From: an uncultured Bacteroidota bacterium
Lineage (GTDB): Bacteria; Bacteroidota; Bacteroidia; Flavobacteriales; Flavobacteriaceae
Length of the DNA: 64,000 nucleotides
Reading direction: 5' to 3'
Assembly: GCA_902518355.1 (NCBI GenBank)
Contig: CABYFY010000005.1
Location: forward strand, 62,001-126,000
Positions 1,693 to 48,063 of the stretch are shown piece after piece (within the stretch, counting starts at the first letter, position 1; each line of letters begins with the position of its first letter). A program made the position numbers and the translations under genes. The notes below the pieces were generated by a model. It saw nothing but the letters and a program-made list of their open reading frames with translations, searched no databases and was not told the DNA's origin.

Positions 1693-3285
1693 ATGGAATT
1701 TAAATTTAAGCATATACCACAAGAGTTTGAGATAACTGAAAAGATAAAGCAAGATAACTATCTGATCAATGGAAATTTGGTAAAGTGGGATGGTGAATTT
1801 TCACCTGTTTATTCTACAATCTCATCAACTCCTGAATATAAGCCTACTTTGCTTGGTGAAATACCAAGTTTGGGTAAAGATGAAGCTATTAAGGCGCTTG
1901 ACTCTGCTTGTAATGCATTTGATAAAGGTAAGGGTTTATGGCCAACGATGAAGGTTGTTGATCGCATTAATGCAATGGAAAACTTCGTTGAAGAAATGAA
2001 GCAGAAAAGAGATGTAGTTGTAAAGTTATTAATGTGGGAGATTGGAAAAAACCATACTGATTCTCAAAAAGAATTTGACAGAACCGTAGATTACATATAC
2101 GATACAATTGAAGCTTACAAGAAAATTGATAGAGATTCTGCAAAATTTCAAAAACATAGTGGTATTAACGCACACATTCGTAGGGGACCACTTGGTGTAG
2201 TTCTTTGTTTAGGACCATATAATTATCCATTGAATGAGACATTTTGTCTTTTAATTCCAGCTTTAATTATGGGTAATACGGTGATATTTAAGCCAGCTAA
2301 ACACGGTGTACTATTAATATCTCCATTAATGGAAGCTTTCAAAAAACATTTTCCACCCGGTGTGGTAAATATTTTATTTGGAAGAGGTAGGGTTTTAGCA
2401 ACTCCTATTATGGAGTCTGGTAAAGTAAATGTCTTGGCACTAATAGGACACAGTTCATCTGCTAATTCCTTGCAAGAATCTCATCCAAAGAAAAATAGGC
2501 TAAGATTAGTCTTGGGTCTTGAGGCAAAAAATCCAGCGATTATATTGCCAGATGCTGACTTAGACTTAACGATTCAGGAATGTATAAATGGATCCCTTTC
2601 TTATAACGGACAAAGATGTACCGCCCTTAAAATAATTTATGTACATAATGAAATTAGAGATGAATTTCTCAAAAGATTTTCTAAGGCTGTTGATGAACTA
2701 AAATACGGAAATCCATGGGAGGAAAACGTTAAGTTAACTCCGCTACCAGAACCAAATAAACCCGAATACATAAAATCACTAATTGCTGATGCAAAACAGA
2801 AGGGTGCTAAGATAGTTAATCCTAAAGGAGGAGTTCAATGTGAAAATTATGTATATCCAGCTATTTTATACCCTGTCACTAAAGATATGAGTGTTTATAA
2901 AGAAGAGCAGTTTGGGCCAGTGATTCCGATAATTTCATTTAAAGATATTAATGAACCTCTTGATGATATGGCAGAATCAAATTACGGACAACAGGTTAGT
3001 ATTTTCGGAAAGGAAACAAAGAAGCTAGGACCCTTAATTGACACCTTAGTGAATTTAGTTTGTAGGGTCAACATAAATAGCTCATGTCAAAGAGGCCCAG
3101 ATATTTATCCATTTACAGGAAGAAAAGATTCTGCATTCAGCACCCTAAGTGTTCATGATGCACTAAGATCATTTTCAATTCGTACGTTTGTTGCCTCAAA
3201 GGATAATAATGAAAACAATAAAATAATTAAGGATTTGTTAAGTTCTGATAATTCTAACTTTGTATCTACAGATTATATTCTTTAG
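1693..3285 (+). CDS. gapN: NADP-dependent non-phosphorylating glyceraldehyde-3-phosphate dehydrogenase / aldehyde dehydrogenase
   Basis: ALDH signatures [27 protein letters not shown] and NGQRCTALK (catalytic Cys). The ORF track starts at 1657 but the internal ATG at 1693 is more plausible. Confidence 0.75.
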
Positions 3286-3341
3286 ATAATTTTCTTTTTT
3301 TTAATAAATATTATTTACATTAGACCAATTAATTTTTAAAA

Positions 3342-3401
3342 ATGCTATTTTTTAACTACAACTTTGACTTCTATTACTTCTTTTATTTAAAACGGATGTA
3401 G
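3342..3401 (+). CDS. Putative aromatic leader peptide MLFFNYNFDFYYFFYLKRM (19 aa; 6 Phe, 4 Tyr)
   Basis: ATG at 3342, TAG at 3399-3401. 10 of 19 residues are Phe/Tyr. Followed by an intrinsic terminator directly before pheA. Not in the supplied ORF track because it is too short. Confidence 0.75.
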   Translation: MLFFNYNFDFYYFFYLKRM

Positions 3402-3437
3402 AGGCTGTTGTAATATAACTAATCAAAATTATTTATG

Positions 3438-3464
3438 GTCTCGAAATTTCGGGACTTTTTTTTT
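3438..3464 (+). terminator. Intrinsic terminator / attenuator upstream of pheA
   Basis: GTCTCGAAATTTCGGGAC inverted repeat (3438-3455) followed by T9 (3456-3464). The pheA ATG follows at 3465. Confidence 0.75.
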
Positions 3465-4292
3465 ATGAAAAAAAATATAGGTATACAGGGAATAAGGGGT
3501 TCATTTCATCACATAGTTTCAAACAACTATTTTGAAGAAGATATTAATTTGATTGAATATCTTTCCTTCGAAGAATTGATTTTAAATTTATTAAACGATA
3601 AAATAGATTATGCTATCATGGCAATAGAAAATTCTACTGCTGGATCTATTATTCCTAATTATGCATTAATTGATGAATATGGAGTAAATATTGTAGGTGA
3701 ATATTATCTTCAAATAACACATAATTTGATTGCCTTAAAAGGTCAATCAATTGAAGATATAAAAGAAGTTCAGTCTCATCCCATGGCTCTTCTTCAATGC
3801 AGAGATTTTTTTAAAGATAATGCGGATATTGTTTTAATCGAGGATAAGGATACTGCTCAGGTAGCAAAGAAAATTTCTGAAAATAAAATTAAGGGTTTAG
3901 GTGCAATTGCAAGTGATTTAGCCTCAAAAATTTATGGGCTGGATATTATAAATGAGAATATTCAAACTATAAAAAAGAATCAAACAAGATTTGTTATTCT
4001 TCAAAAAAAAGGTCCAATTAAAAACTTAAATTTTAATAAGGCATCAGTAAAATTTGAATTGGATCATAAAAGGGGAAGCTTGGCAGCTATTTTAAATGTT
4101 TTAAGTGATTGTAAGTTAAATTTAACTAAGATTCAATCAATGCCTAAGATTCAAACTCCGTGGAGATACTCATTTTTTGTTGATGTCACTTTTGATAAAT
4201 TAGAAGATTATTTTAAGGCTAAGTCTATAATTGAAATTATGGCTAAAGATTTTAAAGTATTAGGTGAATACAAAAACTCAAAAGATGATTGA
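3465..4292 (+). CDS. pheA: Prephenate dehydratase with C-terminal ACT domain
   Basis: GIQGIRGSFHHIV, IENSTAGSI, TRFVILQ and ACT-like KRGSLAAILNVLSDCKLNLTKIQSMP. The ORF-track start at 3435 lies inside the terminator hairpin, so the start is moved to ATG 3465. Confidence 0.85.
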   Translation: MKKNIGIQGIRGSFHHIVSNNYFEEDINLIEYLSFEELILNLLNDKIDYAIMAIENSTAGSIIPNYALIDEYGVNIVGEYYLQITHNLIALKGQSIEDIKEVQSHPMALLQCRDFFKDNADIVLIEDKDTAQVAKKISENKIKGLGAIASDLASKIYGLDIINENIQTIKKNQTRFVILQKKGPIKNLNFNKASVKFELDHKRGSLAAILNVLSDCKLNLTKIQSMPKIQTPWRYSFFVDVTFDKLEDYFKAKSIIEIMAKDFKVLGEYKNSKDD

Positions 4293-5427
4293 ATTTTCAA
4301 AAAGAATAGAAGGATTAAGTGAGTACTATTTTTCCTCCAAGCTGAGAGAGGTAAAGTCTTTAATTGACTATGGAGAAGATATAATCAACCTTGGAATTGG
4401 GAGTCCAGATTTATCTCCTCCAACTCCGGTAATAAAAAAATTAAAAGATTCGTTAAATGTTGCTGGAGCGCATAAATATCAAAGCTATATCGGAATTGAA
4501 AAATTTAGAAAGGAAATATCAAGTTTTTATAAGCTACACTATAATTGTGATTTAAATTATCAATCTGAAATTTTACCATTGATTGGAAGTAAGGAGGGAA
4601 TTTTTCATATTTCAATGTCTTTTCTCTCTGAAGATGATAAAGTCTTAATACCAAATCCCGGATATCCAACATATACATCAATAACAAAGTTGATCGGAAA
4701 TGAAATTATATATTATGATTTAAATGAAAAAAATAACTGGTTGCCTGACTTGGAGCAATTAACTAAACTTGACTTATCTAGTGTTAAGATAATGTGGATT
4801 AATTATCCTCATATGCCAACTGGAGCAGTAGCATCCCATGAATATTTTTCTGAGATTATAAATTTTGCTAAGTCTAATAATATTTTAATCGTAAATGATA
4901 ATCCATATAGTTTCATTTTAAATGATAATCCATTAAGTATTATGAATGTTAACGGAGCCAGAGATATTTGTATTGAGTTAAATTCTTTAAGTAAAAGTTT
5001 TAACATGGCTGGATGGAGATTAGGTTTTGCTGTGGCAAATCCTGAATACATTTCAAATATTTTAAAGGTGAAAAGTAATGTTGATTCAGGCATGTTTTTT
5101 CCTTTACAAATGGGTGCTGTCTCAGCATTAAGTCAATCAAAGGATTGGTTTAAAAACTTGAACTTTGAATATTCAAAAAGAAGAAAATTAGTATGGGAAT
5201 TAGCTGATAAATTAAATTGTAATTTTTCAAGATCTTCATCGGGAATGTTTGTTTGGGCTAAGATTAAAAGTAATAAAACCTCTATAGATTATGTGGATAG
5301 CCTTTTAAATGAAAAAGGTATTTTTATTGCACCTGGCAGTATTTTTGGATCAAATGGTGAAGGATATGTAAGGATCTCACTCTGCAATTCTGAAACCAAT
5401 ATTAAGAAAGCAATATTAAGATTATGA
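4285..5427 (+). CDS. Pyridoxal-phosphate aminotransferase class I/II (aromatic operon)
   Basis: INLGIGSPDLSPP, NPGYPTY and SLSKSFNMAGWRLGFAV (PLP lysine). ATG 4285 overlaps the end of pheA. Confidence 0.85.
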   Translation: MIEFSKRIEGLSEYYFSSKLREVKSLIDYGEDIINLGIGSPDLSPPTPVIKKLKDSLNVAGAHKYQSYIGIEKFRKEISSFYKLHYNCDLNYQSEILPLIGSKEGIFHISMSFLSEDDKVLIPNPGYPTYTSITKLIGNEIIYYDLNEKNNWLPDLEQLTKLDLSSVKIMWINYPHMPTGAVASHEYFSEIINFAKSNNILIVNDNPYSFILNDNPLSIMNVNGARDICIELNSLSKSFNMAGWRLGFAVANPEYISNILKVKSNVDSGMFFPLQMGAVSALSQSKDWFKNLNFEYSKRRKLVWELADKLNCNFSRSSSGMFVWAKIKSNKTSIDYVDSLLNEKGIFIAPGSIFGSNGEGYVRISLCNSETNIKKAILRL

Positions 5428-6278
5428 AAAAGAAAATTTATGTGATTGGTGTTGGTCTTATTGGTGGCAGCTTTGCCATTGATATGAGAAAGTTGTTTCC
5501 AAGATCTACAATTATTGGAATAGATAAGTCAGAAATTCACCTTGAGAAAGCACTTGAGTTAAGGTTAATTGATGAAACATCTGAACTTTCAAAAATAAAT
5601 AATCCAGATATTATTATAATCTCAGTGCCTGTTAAATCTATACTTAATGTTTTACCGATTGTTTTAAAATCTGTAAATAATAACAGCTTAGTTATTGATT
5701 TTGGTTCCACAAAAAAAAGTATTTGCCAAATAGTAAAAGACCATCCTAATCGTCAAAATTTTCTAGCTACTCACCCAATCGCTGGAACAGAATTTTCAGG
5801 ACCCGCGGCTGCTCACGAAGGATTATTCGAAGGAAAAAATATAATTATATGCGATAAGCATAAAACAGATAAATCGATACTTGAGCTTGGACTGAAAATA
5901 TTTAATTTAATGAAAATGAAAATTGGCTATATGGACTCTGCTTCTCATGATAAGCATATTGCATACGTTTCACATTTATCCCATATAAGTTCTTTCATGT
6001 TAGGTAAAACCGTTATGGACGAAGAAAAAAATGAAAAGAATATTTTTGATATGGCAGGGAGTGGTTTTGAATCAACAGTTAGATTAGCAAAAAGTTCACC
6101 TGAAATGTGGACAGATATTTTTGAGGATAATAAAAAAAATATTATTAAATCATTAGATGATTACATTGAAAATTTAGCATATATAAATTCTTTGATTAAA
6201 AAAGATAGATTCGATGAAGTTGAATCTCAATTAAAGTCAACTAATTATATAAAAACAATTTTAAAAGGAATAAATTAG
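5424..6278 (+). CDS. tyrA: Prephenate dehydrogenase
   Basis: N-terminal GVGLIGGSFA Rossmann motif; THPIAGTEFSGP and HDKHIAYVSHLSHI are typical of TyrA. Confidence 0.9.
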   Translation: MKKKIYVIGVGLIGGSFAIDMRKLFPRSTIIGIDKSEIHLEKALELRLIDETSELSKINNPDIIIISVPVKSILNVLPIVLKSVNNNSLVIDFGSTKKSICQIVKDHPNRQNFLATHPIAGTEFSGPAAAHEGLFEGKNIIICDKHKTDKSILELGLKIFNLMKMKIGYMDSASHDKHIAYVSHLSHISSFMLGKTVMDEEKNEKNIFDMAGSGFESTVRLAKSSPEMWTDIFEDNKKNIIKSLDDYIENLAYINSLIKKDRFDEVESQLKSTNYIKTILKGIN

Positions 6279-6281
6279 AAT

Positions 6282-7364
6282 ATGAAGAATAGTAAAAATT
6301 TGAGAAAATGGTTGGATGATATGAATCTTTCACACCCACTTTTAATTGCAGGACCATGTAGTGCCGAAACTGAGAATCAAGTTTTAGATATTGCACACCA
6401 GCTTAAAGACTCTGATACAATAGTTTATAGAGCAGGTATTTGGAAGCCAAGAACAAGACCTGGAAATTTTGAAGGTGTTGGATCTTTAGCATTACAGTGG
6501 ATGAAAAAAGTAAAAAAAGAGACAGGAATTCTTACTACTACCGAGGTTGCTAATGCTAACCATGTTGACCTCGCACTTAAAAATGAAATCGATATTTTGT
6601 GGATTGGAGCTAGGACAACTGTAAGCCCATTTATTGTTCAAGAAATCGCGGAAGCACTTCGAGGTACTGAAAAAACTGTTCTAATTAAAAACCCTGTAAA
6701 CCCTGATTTATCCTTATGGTTAGGAGCAATTGAAAGATTTTTTTCTTCAAATATTAAAAATATTGGAGCAATACATAGAGGGTTTTCAACTTATGAAAAA
6801 ACAAAATATAGAAATAATCCTGAGTGGCAAATTGCTATTGATCTTCAAAGAAGACTTCCTGATTTACCATTGATTCTGGATCCCTCTCACATAGCAGGGA
6901 GAAGAGATCTTATTTTTGATTTATGTCAAACTGCACTTGACTTAAATTATGATGGATTGATGATTGAATCACATAATGATCCAGATAATGCATGGAGTGA
7001 TGCCAAACAGCAAATAACACCTGAAAAGTTAAAAGAATTGACTATGAACTTAAAAGTAAGAAGGATTACTAATAATGATGAAGTTTTCTTAGAAGATTTA
7101 GATAATTTAAGAGCCCAAATTAATGTTCATGACAATCAATTAATCAATATCTTAGGAAACAGAATGAAAGTTGCAGAAAAAATTGGTCTTTTAAAGAAAA
7201 AAAATAATGTTGCTGTTCTTCAATCTAAAAGATGGAATGAAATTTTAGGGAAAATGATTTTAGAGGGTGATGAAAAAAACTTAAGTGAAGAATTTATTTT
7301 AAAAGTTTTCAAGGCAATTCATCAAGAATCAATAAATCACCAAGAAAAAATATTAAAGAATTAA
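6282..7364 (+). CDS. Bifunctional 3-deoxy-7-phosphoheptulonate synthase / chorismate mutase type II
   Basis: GPCSAETENQ and YRAGIWKPRTRPGNFEGVG (DAHP synthase), plus C-terminal LRAQINVHDNQLINILGNRMKVAEKIGLLKK (chorismate mutase). Confidence 0.9.
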   Translation: MKNSKNLRKWLDDMNLSHPLLIAGPCSAETENQVLDIAHQLKDSDTIVYRAGIWKPRTRPGNFEGVGSLALQWMKKVKKETGILTTTEVANANHVDLALKNEIDILWIGARTTVSPFIVQEIAEALRGTEKTVLIKNPVNPDLSLWLGAIERFFSSNIKNIGAIHRGFSTYEKTKYRNNPEWQIAIDLQRRLPDLPLILDPSHIAGRRDLIFDLCQTALDLNYDGLMIESHNDPDNAWSDAKQQITPEKLKELTMNLKVRRITNNDEVFLEDLDNLRAQINVHDNQLINILGNRMKVAEKIGLLKKKNNVAVLQSKRWNEILGKMILEGDEKNLSEEFILKVFKAIHQESINHQEKILKN

Positions 7365-7370
7365 ACATAT

Positions 7371-8300
7371 TTGAAAGGATTAGTCTACAAATCAACAGGT
7401 TCATGGTACACGGTTAAATCAGAAACCGGAGACACATTTGATTGTAAGATTAAAGGGAAACTTAGACTAGAAAATATAAATAGTACAAACCCAGTTGTAG
7501 TTGGAGATTTTGTTGAATTTGATGTTGAAGACCACGATCAGCAAGAAGTTGGTATCATAAAAAAAATATTTGAAAGAAGAAACTATATTTTAAGAAAGTC
7601 TGTTAATCTATCAAAGCAGACACATATTTTAGCATCAAATATAGATCTTCTTTTACTAGTTATTACTTTAAAAAATCCGATTACAACTACTAGTTTTATT
7701 GATAGATTTTTAGTAAGTGCAGAAGCGTATTCAATCAAAACCCTGCTAGTTTTTAATAAGTGTGATTTATATGATGAAGCAGATGAAGATTCATTAAATT
7801 CTCTGATTAATATTTATGATAGTATTGGTTATGAAACGATTAAAACATGTGCAAATTCAGGTAAAGGTATTAAAGAATTGGAGAATAAAATATCAAATAA
7901 AACCATTATGTTAGGAGGTCATTCCGGTGTGGGTAAAACATCAATAATTAATGCAATAGATGGTACTTTAAATTTAAAAGTAGGTAATATTTCTGATCAA
8001 CATTCACAAGGTAAGCATACAACTACTTATGCAGAACTTTATGATCTTGAAAATAACATTAAACTTATAGATACACCGGGGATAAAAGGATTTGGATTAG
8101 TGAATTATAATATAGATGAGATTAGTAATTTTTTTCCTGAATTTTTTAATGTTAAATCAAAATGTAAGTTTAATAATTGTATACATTTAAACGAGCCTAA
8201 ATGCTATGTGAAAGAAAAAGTAAAGTCCGGAGAAATTTCAAAATCTAGGTATGATAGCTATATTCAAATAATAAATGATGATAATTTAAAACATAGATAA
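7371..8300 (+). CDS. rsgA: Ribosome small subunit-dependent GTPase A
   Basis: FNKCDL, GHSGVGKTSIINAI and DTPGIKGFGL (circularly permuted GTPase), CKFNNCIH zinc motif. TTG start. Confidence 0.9.
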   Translation: MKGLVYKSTGSWYTVKSETGDTFDCKIKGKLRLENINSTNPVVVGDFVEFDVEDHDQQEVGIIKKIFERRNYILRKSVNLSKQTHILASNIDLLLLVITLKNPITTTSFIDRFLVSAEAYSIKTLLVFNKCDLYDEADEDSLNSLINIYDSIGYETIKTCANSGKGIKELENKISNKTIMLGGHSGVGKTSIINAIDGTLNLKVGNISDQHSQGKHTTTYAELYDLENNIKLIDTPGIKGFGLVNYNIDEISNFFPEFFNVKSKCKFNNCIHLNEPKCYVKEKVKSGEISKSRYDSYIQIINDDNLKHR

Positions 8301-8301
8301 A

Positions 8302-8742
8302 TTGAAATTAGTTATTCAGAGGGTAATAGAATCAAATTTAACAATTGATAAAAAGATATATTCTTCGATTGGATACGGTATGGTAATATTCATCGGAATT
8401 TCTGCAAATGATAATGAAAGTTTTTTGAACAAAACAGCAAGTAAAGTTTCAAAACTTAGAATTTTCAATGACGAATTTGGGAAAATGAATAAAGATATAA
8501 ATGATATTAATGGAGAAATTTTATTGGTTAGTCAATTTACTTTGTATGCAGACACAAAAAAAGGAAATCGCCCAAGCTTTATCAAAGCTGCCAAACCAGA
8601 AAATGCTATTAAAATTTATAATAGTTTTACAAAAGAATTACAAACATATATAAACACAAAAATTAAGACAGGAAAATTTGGTGCTGACATGAAAATTAAT
8701 TTAATTAATGATGGCCCGGTAACAATAATCTTAGAAAACTAA
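8302..8742 (+). CDS. dtd: D-aminoacyl-tRNA deacylase
   Basis: MKLVIQRV, LLVSQFTLYADTKKGNRPSF and KTGKFGADMKINLINDGPVTIILE are diagnostic. TTG start. Confidence 0.95.
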   Translation: MKLVIQRVIESNLTIDKKIYSSIGYGMVIFIGISANDNESFLNKTASKVSKLRIFNDEFGKMNKDINDINGEILLVSQFTLYADTKKGNRPSFIKAAKPENAIKIYNSFTKELQTYINTKIKTGKFGADMKINLINDGPVTIILEN

Positions 8743-11230: not shown

Positions 11231-11557
11231 ATGGAAATAAAAAATTTACAGTTAAAAGTTGATAATTGGATAAAAAAACACGGGGTAAGATATTTTAATG
11301 AATTGACAAATATGGCACAACTTACTGAAGAAGTTGGTGAAGTAGCTCGTATAATTTCCCGTCAATATGGAGAACAAAGTTTTAAAGAATCCGATAAAGA
11401 AGTTGATTTAGCTGGTGAACTTTCAGATGTTTTATTCGTTTTGTTATGTCTTGCAAATCAAACAGGAGTTGACCTTCAAACCTCGTTCAACAATAGACTA
11501 AATATGAAAGCAAAACGAGATCATGATAGACATCATTCAAATCAAAAACTTGACTAA
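11231..11557 (+). CDS. MazG-like nucleotide pyrophosphohydrolase
   Basis: LTEEVGEVARIISRQYGEQ and LAGELSDVLFVLLCLANQTGVDL (MazG-like EExxE...ExxD pattern). Confidence 0.8.
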   Translation: MEIKNLQLKVDNWIKKHGVRYFNELTNMAQLTEEVGEVARIISRQYGEQSFKESDKEVDLAGELSDVLFVLLCLANQTGVDLQTSFNNRLNMKAKRDHDRHHSNQKLD

Positions 11558-12771
11558 TGAATCTTTCATTGAAGAGTGCTCAACTTAATGATGCTCATAT
11601 TGTTATTCCAGGATCGAAAAGTGAATCTAATAGGTTATTAATTTTAAGCTCTCTTTTTAAAAAGTTGTCTTTGGAAAATATATCAAATTCAGATGACACA
11701 AATTATTTATTAAAAGCTCTGAGTTCTAAATCAAGTACTATTGATATCGGTCATGCAGGAACTGCAATGAGATTTTTAACTTCATACTTTTCATTAACCA
11801 CTAAAAAAGAGATAGTATTGAGTGGTTCCCAAAGAATGCATAATCGACCAATTAAAATACTAGTAGATTCTCTTCGTGAAATTGGGGCCTCAATTCATTA
11901 TATAGATAAGGAAGGTTATCCACCTCTTCTCATTAAACCATCGGAATTAATTAGTAAGAATTTGATTATAGATTCTTCAACAAGTAGTCAATATATATCA
12001 TCTTTATTATTAATCGCCCCTAAGATTTCAGGAGGATTGAAAATACAATTAACAGGAAGGGAGACATCCAAGCCATATATTGATATGACCATTTCTATAC
12101 TTAAAAAACTCGGAGTTGAAGTTACTACAACAGATAACCAAATATCTATTTCTGAACTTCAGAAAATTGAATCTAAAAAACATTATATTGAGTCTGACTG
12201 GTCTTCAGCCTCTTATTTCTATTCAGTGGTTGCACTAGCAAAAATTGGTTTTAGCTTGAAGCTTTCAAAATTTTCTTTTGAAAGTTTACAAGGTGATTCT
12301 AAAGTTGCAGACATTTACAAATCATTTGGGGTTAAAACAACATACAAAGATGATCTTGTAATTTTAAAAAAAGTCGAATCTAATACTGATAAATTTTCAT
12401 TTGATTTATCTTCGAACCCAGATTTAGCACAAACAATTTGTGTCACTTGTTTGGGTCTTGGTATTAAATGTAATTTAACCGGTCTACATACATTAAAAAT
12501 TAAAGAAACTGATAGACTTTTAGCATTAAAGAAGGAGTTAAGCAAGTTTAATCTAAAAGTTATAATTACAGATGATTCCATTTCTTTTGATAATGTTGAT
12601 TTTATAAAACCAAATGTAGTAATAGAAACATATGATGATCACAGAATGGCAATGTCATTCGCTTGTTTGGCGACTAAAGTCAAAATTATAATCAAAGATC
12701 CTAAAGTTGTAAGTAAATCCTACAGTTCCTTTTGGTCAGATTTAGAGAGAATAGCTATATATTCTGAATAA
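11557..12771 (+). CDS. aroA: 3-phosphoshikimate 1-carboxyvinyltransferase (EPSP synthase)
   Basis: PGSKSESNRLLIL, GHAGTAMRFLTSYF, LKIKETDRLLALKKEL and DDHRMAMSFA. Confidence 0.9.
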   Translation: MNLSLKSAQLNDAHIVIPGSKSESNRLLILSSLFKKLSLENISNSDDTNYLLKALSSKSSTIDIGHAGTAMRFLTSYFSLTTKKEIVLSGSQRMHNRPIKILVDSLREIGASIHYIDKEGYPPLLIKPSELISKNLIIDSSTSSQYISSLLLIAPKISGGLKIQLTGRETSKPYIDMTISILKKLGVEVTTTDNQISISELQKIESKKHYIESDWSSASYFYSVVALAKIGFSLKLSKFSFESLQGDSKVADIYKSFGVKTTYKDDLVILKKVESNTDKFSFDLSSNPDLAQTICVTCLGLGIKCNLTGLHTLKIKETDRLLALKKELSKFNLKVIITDDSISFDNVDFIKPNVVIETYDDHRMAMSFACLATKVKIIIKDPKVVSKSYSSFWSDLERIAIYSE

Positions 12772-29561: not shown

Positions 29562-31208
<1,647 letters not shown>

Positions 31209-47316: not shown

Positions 47317-48063
47317 TTATTCAGGAAATTTAAATTCACTGTCATCAATAACGGGATTAAGTTTAATAGAATTAAATTTTATAGGCTGACCGGGTTGATC
47401 TTTAACCCCTTGGGTCATAGAAAACGGCAGATATAAGCCTTCTACCTCTTGATAATTACTCATTTTAGACTCCATAATTACACCCTTAGCAGGGCCACTC
47501 ATAACCTCTTCCTGAACCATAATCGGAAAAAATTCTTTGGAATCAAAATAGTAAACCGAAACGTTAGGAACTTCAATTTCATCAATAAGCATTGGTTTTT
47601 TTATCAATTTTATTTTAAATGTATCGGAACCGTCTACTATCTCTGTACCCATAAATTCCAATGAAAATCCTTTTTCCTTGTAGTTTAAAAAGGGATTTGG
47701 AAATTCACCAAGTTCATTTTTTAGCTTGTCTATATCTTCTTGGCTACTTTTTTCAGCTTTCATTGTCATGAAATTTGTTGACCACAATGTCTCTCCGTCA
47801 AATACACCCTGCTTTATTTCTTGACCTTGAATGAAAATTTTAGTATAACTTTTGTTTGCTGATTGTACCATTTCAATAGGTATTTCCATTCCCATTTGAT
47901 TAATTATAGCGTTCATTTTTATTGCTTTGACATTTTGCCAATTTTCATCTCCACCAATCTTTTCAATATAATTTTCAATGATCTCGTCAGCAGTTTGGGC
48001 ACTAAATGATATTGAAATCATAAATACAAAAGCAGTTAGCAATAAATAGTTTAGTTTTTTCAT
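47317..48063 (-). CDS. Secreted outer-membrane lipoprotein-sorting-like protein
   Basis: Signal peptide; TADEIIENYIEKIGGDENWQNVKAIKMNA...VSVYYFDSKEFFPI...LYLPFSM. Confidence 0.6.
   Translation of the reverse strand: MKKLNYLLLTAFVFMISISFSAQTADEIIENYIEKIGGDENWQNVKAIKMNAIINQMGMEIPIEMVQSANKSYTKIFIQGQEIKQGVFDGETLWSTNFMTMKAEKSSQEDIDKLKNELGEFPNPFLNYKEKGFSLEFMGTEIVDGSDTFKIKLIKKPMLIDEIEVPNVSVYYFDSKEFFPIMVQEEVMSGPAKGVIMESKMSNYQEVEGLYLPFSMTQGVKDQPGQPIKFNSIKLNPVIDDSEFKFPE

Follow-up and report, generated by a model that had tools for sequence, protein, structure and literature searches.

The gene for prephenate dehydratase, pheA (positions 3465-4292, plus strand), opens a compact run of genes in a 64,000-nucleotide stretch of the genome of an uncultured Flavobacteriaceae bacterium (the window, to which all coordinates refer), and the short T-rich interval in front of it raises the question of how this run is controlled. 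Downstream of pheA, all on the plus strand, lie a PLP aminotransferase of the LL-DAP/aspartate type (4285-5427), presumably acting on aromatic amino acids to judge by its context, tyrA (prephenate dehydrogenase; 5424-6278), a DAHP synthase fused to chorismate mutase (6282-7364), and rsgA and dtd (7371-8742). With gaps of no more than 7 nt, the same-strand run continues beyond dtd via two more genes to its last member, aroA (EPSP synthase; 11557-12771). We propose, with a probability of about 0.92 based on sequence comparison and modeled folding, that transcription of pheA and of the aromatic genes co-oriented with it is controlled by a ribosome-mediated attenuator encoded in this interval, with charged tRNA-Phe and tRNA-Tyr as the signals sensed. 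Its reach could possibly include rsgA and dtd. Terminator-like sites along the run are no commoner than in shuffled sequences and the gaps contain none; because the run is in addition effectively gapless, aroA may share the same control.

A preliminary description of this locus, prepared from the sequence alone, had placed a 19-codon ORF rich in Phe and Tyr before pheA, and its boundaries proved exact to the base: the predicted leader MLFFNYNFDFYYFFYLKRM runs on the plus strand from the ATG at 3342 to the TAG ending at 3401, and 10 of its 19 residues are Phe or Tyr. The products of the operon, Phe and Tyr, are thus the amino acids that abound in the leader. Among the 57 ORFs of at least 100 amino acids in the window, only pheA is preceded by an aromatic mini-ORF with a terminator. 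An aromatic ORF with a hairpin on the minus strand (47499-47576; 7 of 25 residues aromatic) lacks pathway context and was taken as a chance occurrence.

Behind the leader, an intrinsic terminator occupies 3437-3464 of the plus strand, its stem (the 3:4 helix) spanning 3437-3456 and its U tract 3456-3464. The hairpin GTCTCGAAATTTCGGGAC (3438-3455) is followed by nine T (3456-3464) and then by the pheA ATG at 3465, confirming the earlier placement of a hairpin and T9 ending directly at the start codon. An intrinsic terminator thus stands between the leader ORF and the first structural gene, as in known attenuators. Between 2.8 and 3.8 kb, neither strand has another terminator-like site, shuffled sequences leading one to expect 0.2, and folding of 3330-3475 gives a z-score of -2.8. 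A further in-frame ATG, at 3435, falls within the antiterminator arm and hence within the switch; it is improbable as the pheA start, but it leads simple ORF callers to place that start 30 nt too far upstream and to include the terminator in the gene.

The antiterminator is formed by segment 2, GAGGCTGT (3401-3408, plus strand), which begins with the final base of the leader's stop codon, and segment 3, ATGGTCTC (3435-3442, plus strand). This pairing had been proposed by hand, and we obtained the same eight base pairs, three of them G-U. The two structures were also said to be mutually exclusive, and they are, for ATGGTCTC shares bases with the 5' arm of the terminator. A third helix was missed at that stage and completes the set of 1:2, 2:3 and 3:4 pairings. 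In the window its arms, located by folding and by a pairing test, are segment 1, TACAAC (3357-3362, plus strand, within the leader ORF), and GTTGTA (3407-3412, plus strand), which overlaps segment 2. Further examples of the two arms are ACACATAT/GTATGTGT, ATACATATTA/TAATATGTAT and CGCATATTGG/TTAATATGCG; the first arm lies in the 5' part of the leader ORF, approximately 30 nt upstream of where the aromatic run ends, and pairs with bases overlapping or just behind segment 2. A hairpin that could hide segment 2 when the leader is untranslated is thus at hand, although in some genera another pairing scores better; the existence of this hairpin implies that the untranslated state should also terminate.

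The preliminary description had suggested looking for covariation in both helices of the switch. Classical covariation, examined with RNAalifold in 20 close leaders, was scarce, the terminator hardly varying within the family, and because the terminator is too uniform there for covariation to be seen, we turned to pairing tests across genera. Segment 2 is very different in sequence from genus to genus, yet it fits the segment 3 of its own locus: the 2:3 pairing score over 51 genera was 18.6 with the true partner vs 13.5 ± 0.43 with permuted partners, and for the 1:2 helix it was 16.9 vs 14.6 ± 0.35, none of 10,000 permutations being as high in either case, with the qualification that both permutations leave some phylogenetic relatedness in place. 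The expectation therefore holds for the antiterminator, which is exclusive with the terminator and shows compensating changes in the 51-genus permutation.

Evidence that the leader is translated comes from its reading frame. In 15 congeneric leaders of 19 codons each, pN/pS was 0.46 in frame, compared with 0.96 and 1.17 when those bases are read in the other two frames, from which we conclude that the frame is under selection and that the constraint is moderate. Among the 94 leaders detected (see below), the aromatic run includes Phe in every case, Tyr in 93 and Trp in 27. The leader ORF rich in the codons of the operon products that characterizes this class of attenuator is accordingly present here as a predicted ORF, on the combined grounds of composition, in-frame constraint and conservation.

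Upstream of the leader ORF, TACATTAG (3316-3323, plus strand) is a putative -7 element, recognized by its likeness to the consensus box and lying 18 nt before the leader ATG; from it, transcription is predicted to start at approximately 3328-3330, upstream of 3342 as the preliminary description required. The -7 box of Bacteroidota has the consensus TAnnTTTG. Similar boxes precede most of the leaders, and all six positions are matched in 25 of 94, vs 5% of shuffles. The box in the window matches five of the six, which 59% of shuffled upstream sequences also reach, so that it discriminates weakly, and for this reason we regard the promoter evidence as moderate.

The distribution of the device was studied in 128 pheA upstream regions gathered from relatives and across the phylum. 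A detector requiring an ORF of 12 to 45 amino acids with at least six and at least 28% Phe, Tyr or Trp, a downstream terminator and a segment that could pair with its 5' arm, with thresholds fixed after a first look at the data, was positive in 94 of the 128 regions, in none of 1,280 dinucleotide shuffles and in none of the 128 reverse strands. Eleven more leaders were added, ten of them evident by eye and one displaced from pheA, which brings the device to 15 of the 22 families sampled. Within the family of the window, where the conservation of the mini-ORF had been named as a check on the proposal, it was present in 68 of 68 regions, 67 of them found by the detector and one displaced upstream. 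In the displaced case (L020; G033:C21), the attenuator sits approximately 516 nt before pheA, with repeat-like sequence in between. A covariance model built from 20 leaders and run on 60 whole genomes gave 37 matches at E ≤ 0.0016, the training leaders being among them by construction, and all 37 were upstream of pheA; they lay 0 to ~60 nt from the gene, the exceptions being the match at 516 nt and, in a tandem pair, the outer copy. The window's genome contained a single match, at 3339-3464. Matches with E of 0.003 to 0.1 were nearly all away from pheA and were treated as chance.

Leaders were not found in five loci of family f16 (L081-L085), which come from endosymbiont-sized genomes of 600 kb that keep pheA, nor in family f5, where most PheA proteins are divergent (~30% identity; 46% for L087), nor at L037 and L093-L095, nor in most sampled members of the other classes of the phylum. 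Three loci outside the class (L117, L118 and L119) do carry a leader, and their PheA proteins are 42 to 44% identical to that of the window, suggesting that leader and pheA may have moved together. Other members of the phylum with more distant PheA proteins lack a leader, unlike these three. Taken together, the presence of the device, with its compensating changes, before pheA across much of the Bacteroidota makes it very likely, as far as comparative sequence evidence goes, that the feedback switch is real and ancient and of the kind known from E. coli trp and phe.

Two further loci were unusual. In L042 (G059:C25:18767-19036), a tandem pair of complete Phe-rich leader and terminator units, MNNLVSTFRFFGFFFFRKEGAMS and MNQNTQQNFSFFGFFFFKWKSEAVD, precedes pheA. 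Genome G005 has two leader-bearing pheA loci on separate contigs (L002 and L031), each encoding a PheA 97% identical to that of the window; the assembly, at 6% contamination, probably represents a mixed bin.

The placement of segment 2 relative to the codons bears directly on how the switch could operate. Over the 51 genera, segment 2 begins a median of 10 nt (range 5 to 18 nt) after the last aromatic codon ends, whereas its position relative to the end of the stop codon varies from 33 nt before to 5 nt after, which suggests that the geometry is set by the codon run rather than by the stop codon. The best pairings fell at 5 to 14 nt in 97% of real cases vs 39% with scrambled terminator arms. 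Approximately 10 nt separate the A-site codon from the leading edge of a bacterial ribosome (E. coli value); the gap matches this distance and is therefore what stalling on aromatic codons requires.

We modeled the ribosome as a mask covering 15 nt behind and 13 nt from the first A-site base, on RNA ending before segment 4 has been made. The predicted probability of the antiterminator in the window was 0.03 with no ribosome, rose to 0.96 when a ribosome was stalled among the aromatic codons and fell to 0.00 when it had reached the stop codon, in keeping with the earlier suggestion that a stalled ribosome frees the antiterminator and one at the stop masks it; the corresponding means for the 51 genera were 0.65, 0.95 and 0.16. 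Codon placement that frees and covers segment 2 is thus found in the window, and the stalled state behaved as expected in 49 of 51 genera. Masking of segment 2 by a ribosome that has reached the stop codon (P < 0.2) was seen in 41 of the 51; in the other 10, which have late stop codons, such a ribosome leaves segment 2 unmasked in this static model, and there the switch may depend on ribosome transit. Once the RNA is full-length and at equilibrium, the terminator prevails whatever the state of the ribosome (51-genus average), and the window's antiterminator, with eight pairs of which three are G-U, is weak. The antiterminator would therefore have to act during transcription.

Working from computed features, namely the parts, their mutual exclusivity, their conservation, coding selection, conserved pairing and ribosome-scale spacing, we infer the following cycle for promoter use, stalling, termination and response to amino acids. 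RNA polymerase would start approximately 12 to 14 nt before the leader ATG, with a ribosome following. When Phe- or Tyr-tRNA is short, the ribosome would stall on the aromatic codons, covering segment 1 or having passed it, and segment 2, free just past its leading edge, would pair with segment 3 and let transcription go on. When both tRNAs are plentiful, the ribosome would reach the stop codon and cover segment 2, and the 3:4 terminator would form. If the leader were not translated at all, the 1:2 hairpin would hide segment 2 and the terminator would again be expected to form. The trp/pheA-type attenuator claimed in the preliminary description is thus supported by conservation, coding constraint, pairing, spacing and modeled masked folding.

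Could the ribosome be arrested by the leader peptide itself rather than by a shortage of charged tRNA? In a TnaC-like arrangement, stalling follows when the nascent peptide, still within the exit tunnel, detects a ligand, and the invariance of Phe13 and Tyr15 within the window's genus, together with an FYFFF-like core seen repeatedly among the leader peptides, could be read in this way. However, the length of the leader, the order of its residues and the order of Phe and Tyr all differ from genus to genus, the constraint on the frame is moderate (pN/pS 0.46), and what is kept is composition and the distance to the antiterminator. The fixed residues at fixed positions before an arrest site that mark arrest leaders were not seen, and we consider this explanation very improbable.

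We give similarly little credence to a riboswitch, a T-box or an RNA-binding protein using the terminator without leader translation. Any sensor could employ a terminator and an antiterminator, and the best, albeit weak, Rfam match to the window is to a riboswitch candidate, the trpB motif (RF04312), which, like our device, precedes amino-acid genes and combines an antiterminator with two hairpins, of which the second is a terminator (PMC11109978). This match scored 23.8 bits against a cut-off of 59, below what membership in the family requires, and the motif was described from Firmicutes and Fusobacteria (PMC11109978). A scan of the whole window with Rfam returned nothing at cut-off except a tRNA, all families including the T-box falling below it, so that neither a T-box nor a known riboswitch was recognized; the alignment of the leaders has no conserved core resembling a ligand pocket, and the conserved properties are codon composition and distance to segment 2.

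That the hairpin merely terminates the upstream aldehyde dehydrogenase gene, which lies on the same strand, ends at 3285 and has no further terminator before pheA, with a T-rich spacer reading as an aromatic ORF by accident, is most improbable given the coding constraint on the leader, a device held across 15 families (once displaced by insertion, in L020) and present once per genome, at pheA, and a segment 2 that would be of no use to a plain terminator and still pairs with the terminator arm.

Returning to the attenuator, its closest functional counterpart is the E. coli pheA attenuator (RF01859, Phe_leader), in which a Phe-rich leader likewise precedes pheA and is followed by 1:2, 2:3 and 3:4 helices and a U tract. 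The RF01859 model can be aligned over its full length to the window and to 7 of the 20 loci of relatives scanned. The scores are 17.9 bits for the window and at most 36.1 for the relatives, and because the curated cut-off of the family is 55, the device is placed outside it; no Rfam family matches the pheA-leader device. Unlike the E. coli leader, those detected here have Tyr beside Phe (Phe in 94/94, Tyr in 93/94), and the leader heads a joint run of pheA, aminotransferase, tyrA and DAHP synthase; the likeness seen is one of functional logic. The trp and his leader attenuators (Rfam Trp_leader and His_leader) share the logic and differ in regulatory codons and genes, their relation in sequence being judged here by Rfam scores.

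Leaders for other amino acids were also observed among these genomes. Outside the window, the same genome carries a Trp leader, MKKLQLNMWWWKHEIFIS, with a terminator upstream of trpE (L153; G000:C5, ~30750-30810), and similar WWW leaders stand before trpE in most relatives. A His-rich mini-ORF with a terminator was present upstream of hisG in nine of nine relatives with HisG (L144-L152). HisG itself was not found in the 21 genomes of the window's genus (G000-G020; 56-86% complete), control genomes being positive, and the genus may have lost histidine synthesis. Upstream regions of ilvD in the genus showed no convincing leader with terminator.

Leader-peptide attenuation is textbook knowledge in Enterobacteriaceae, and the mechanism proposed here is of a known kind, which in Bacteroidota has so far just been hinted at in the searchable literature. 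The main text of Guerin et al. (2021; PMC9723704) mentions clues to leader-peptide attenuation before amino-acid operons in F. psychrophilum, and a structured 5' element upstream of pheA that is conserved in other Flavobacteriaceae and absent from Rfam. That element concerns the same gene and family as the device in the window and can be likened to it by description, the main text giving no sequence, peptide, helices or spacing for it (PMC9723704). No other treatment of such amino-acid leaders in Bacteroidota was found in the open-licence literature searched. What the present analysis adds is the anatomy, the third helix, the linkage to pheA, the distribution beyond the family, the dual Phe and Tyr codons and the ribosome-scale spacing rule.

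Bacteroidota mostly initiate translation without Shine-Dalgarno pairing. We put forward tentatively, and with less than even confidence, the broader view that in such bacteria the pheA leader is an ancient Phe and Tyr attenuator that moves with its pheA, that its spacing would show close coupling between the lead ribosome and RNA polymerase, and that lineages with late stop codons work by ribosome transit. The device predicts joint control of pheA, tyrA and DAHP synthase by Phe and Tyr and its strict linkage to pheA, its conservation in 15 families and its absence from Rfam make it a convenient natural reporter. Should the prediction hold, a stalled ribosome would decide the fate of RNA polymerase, and transcription and translation would then be closely coupled in Bacteroidota.
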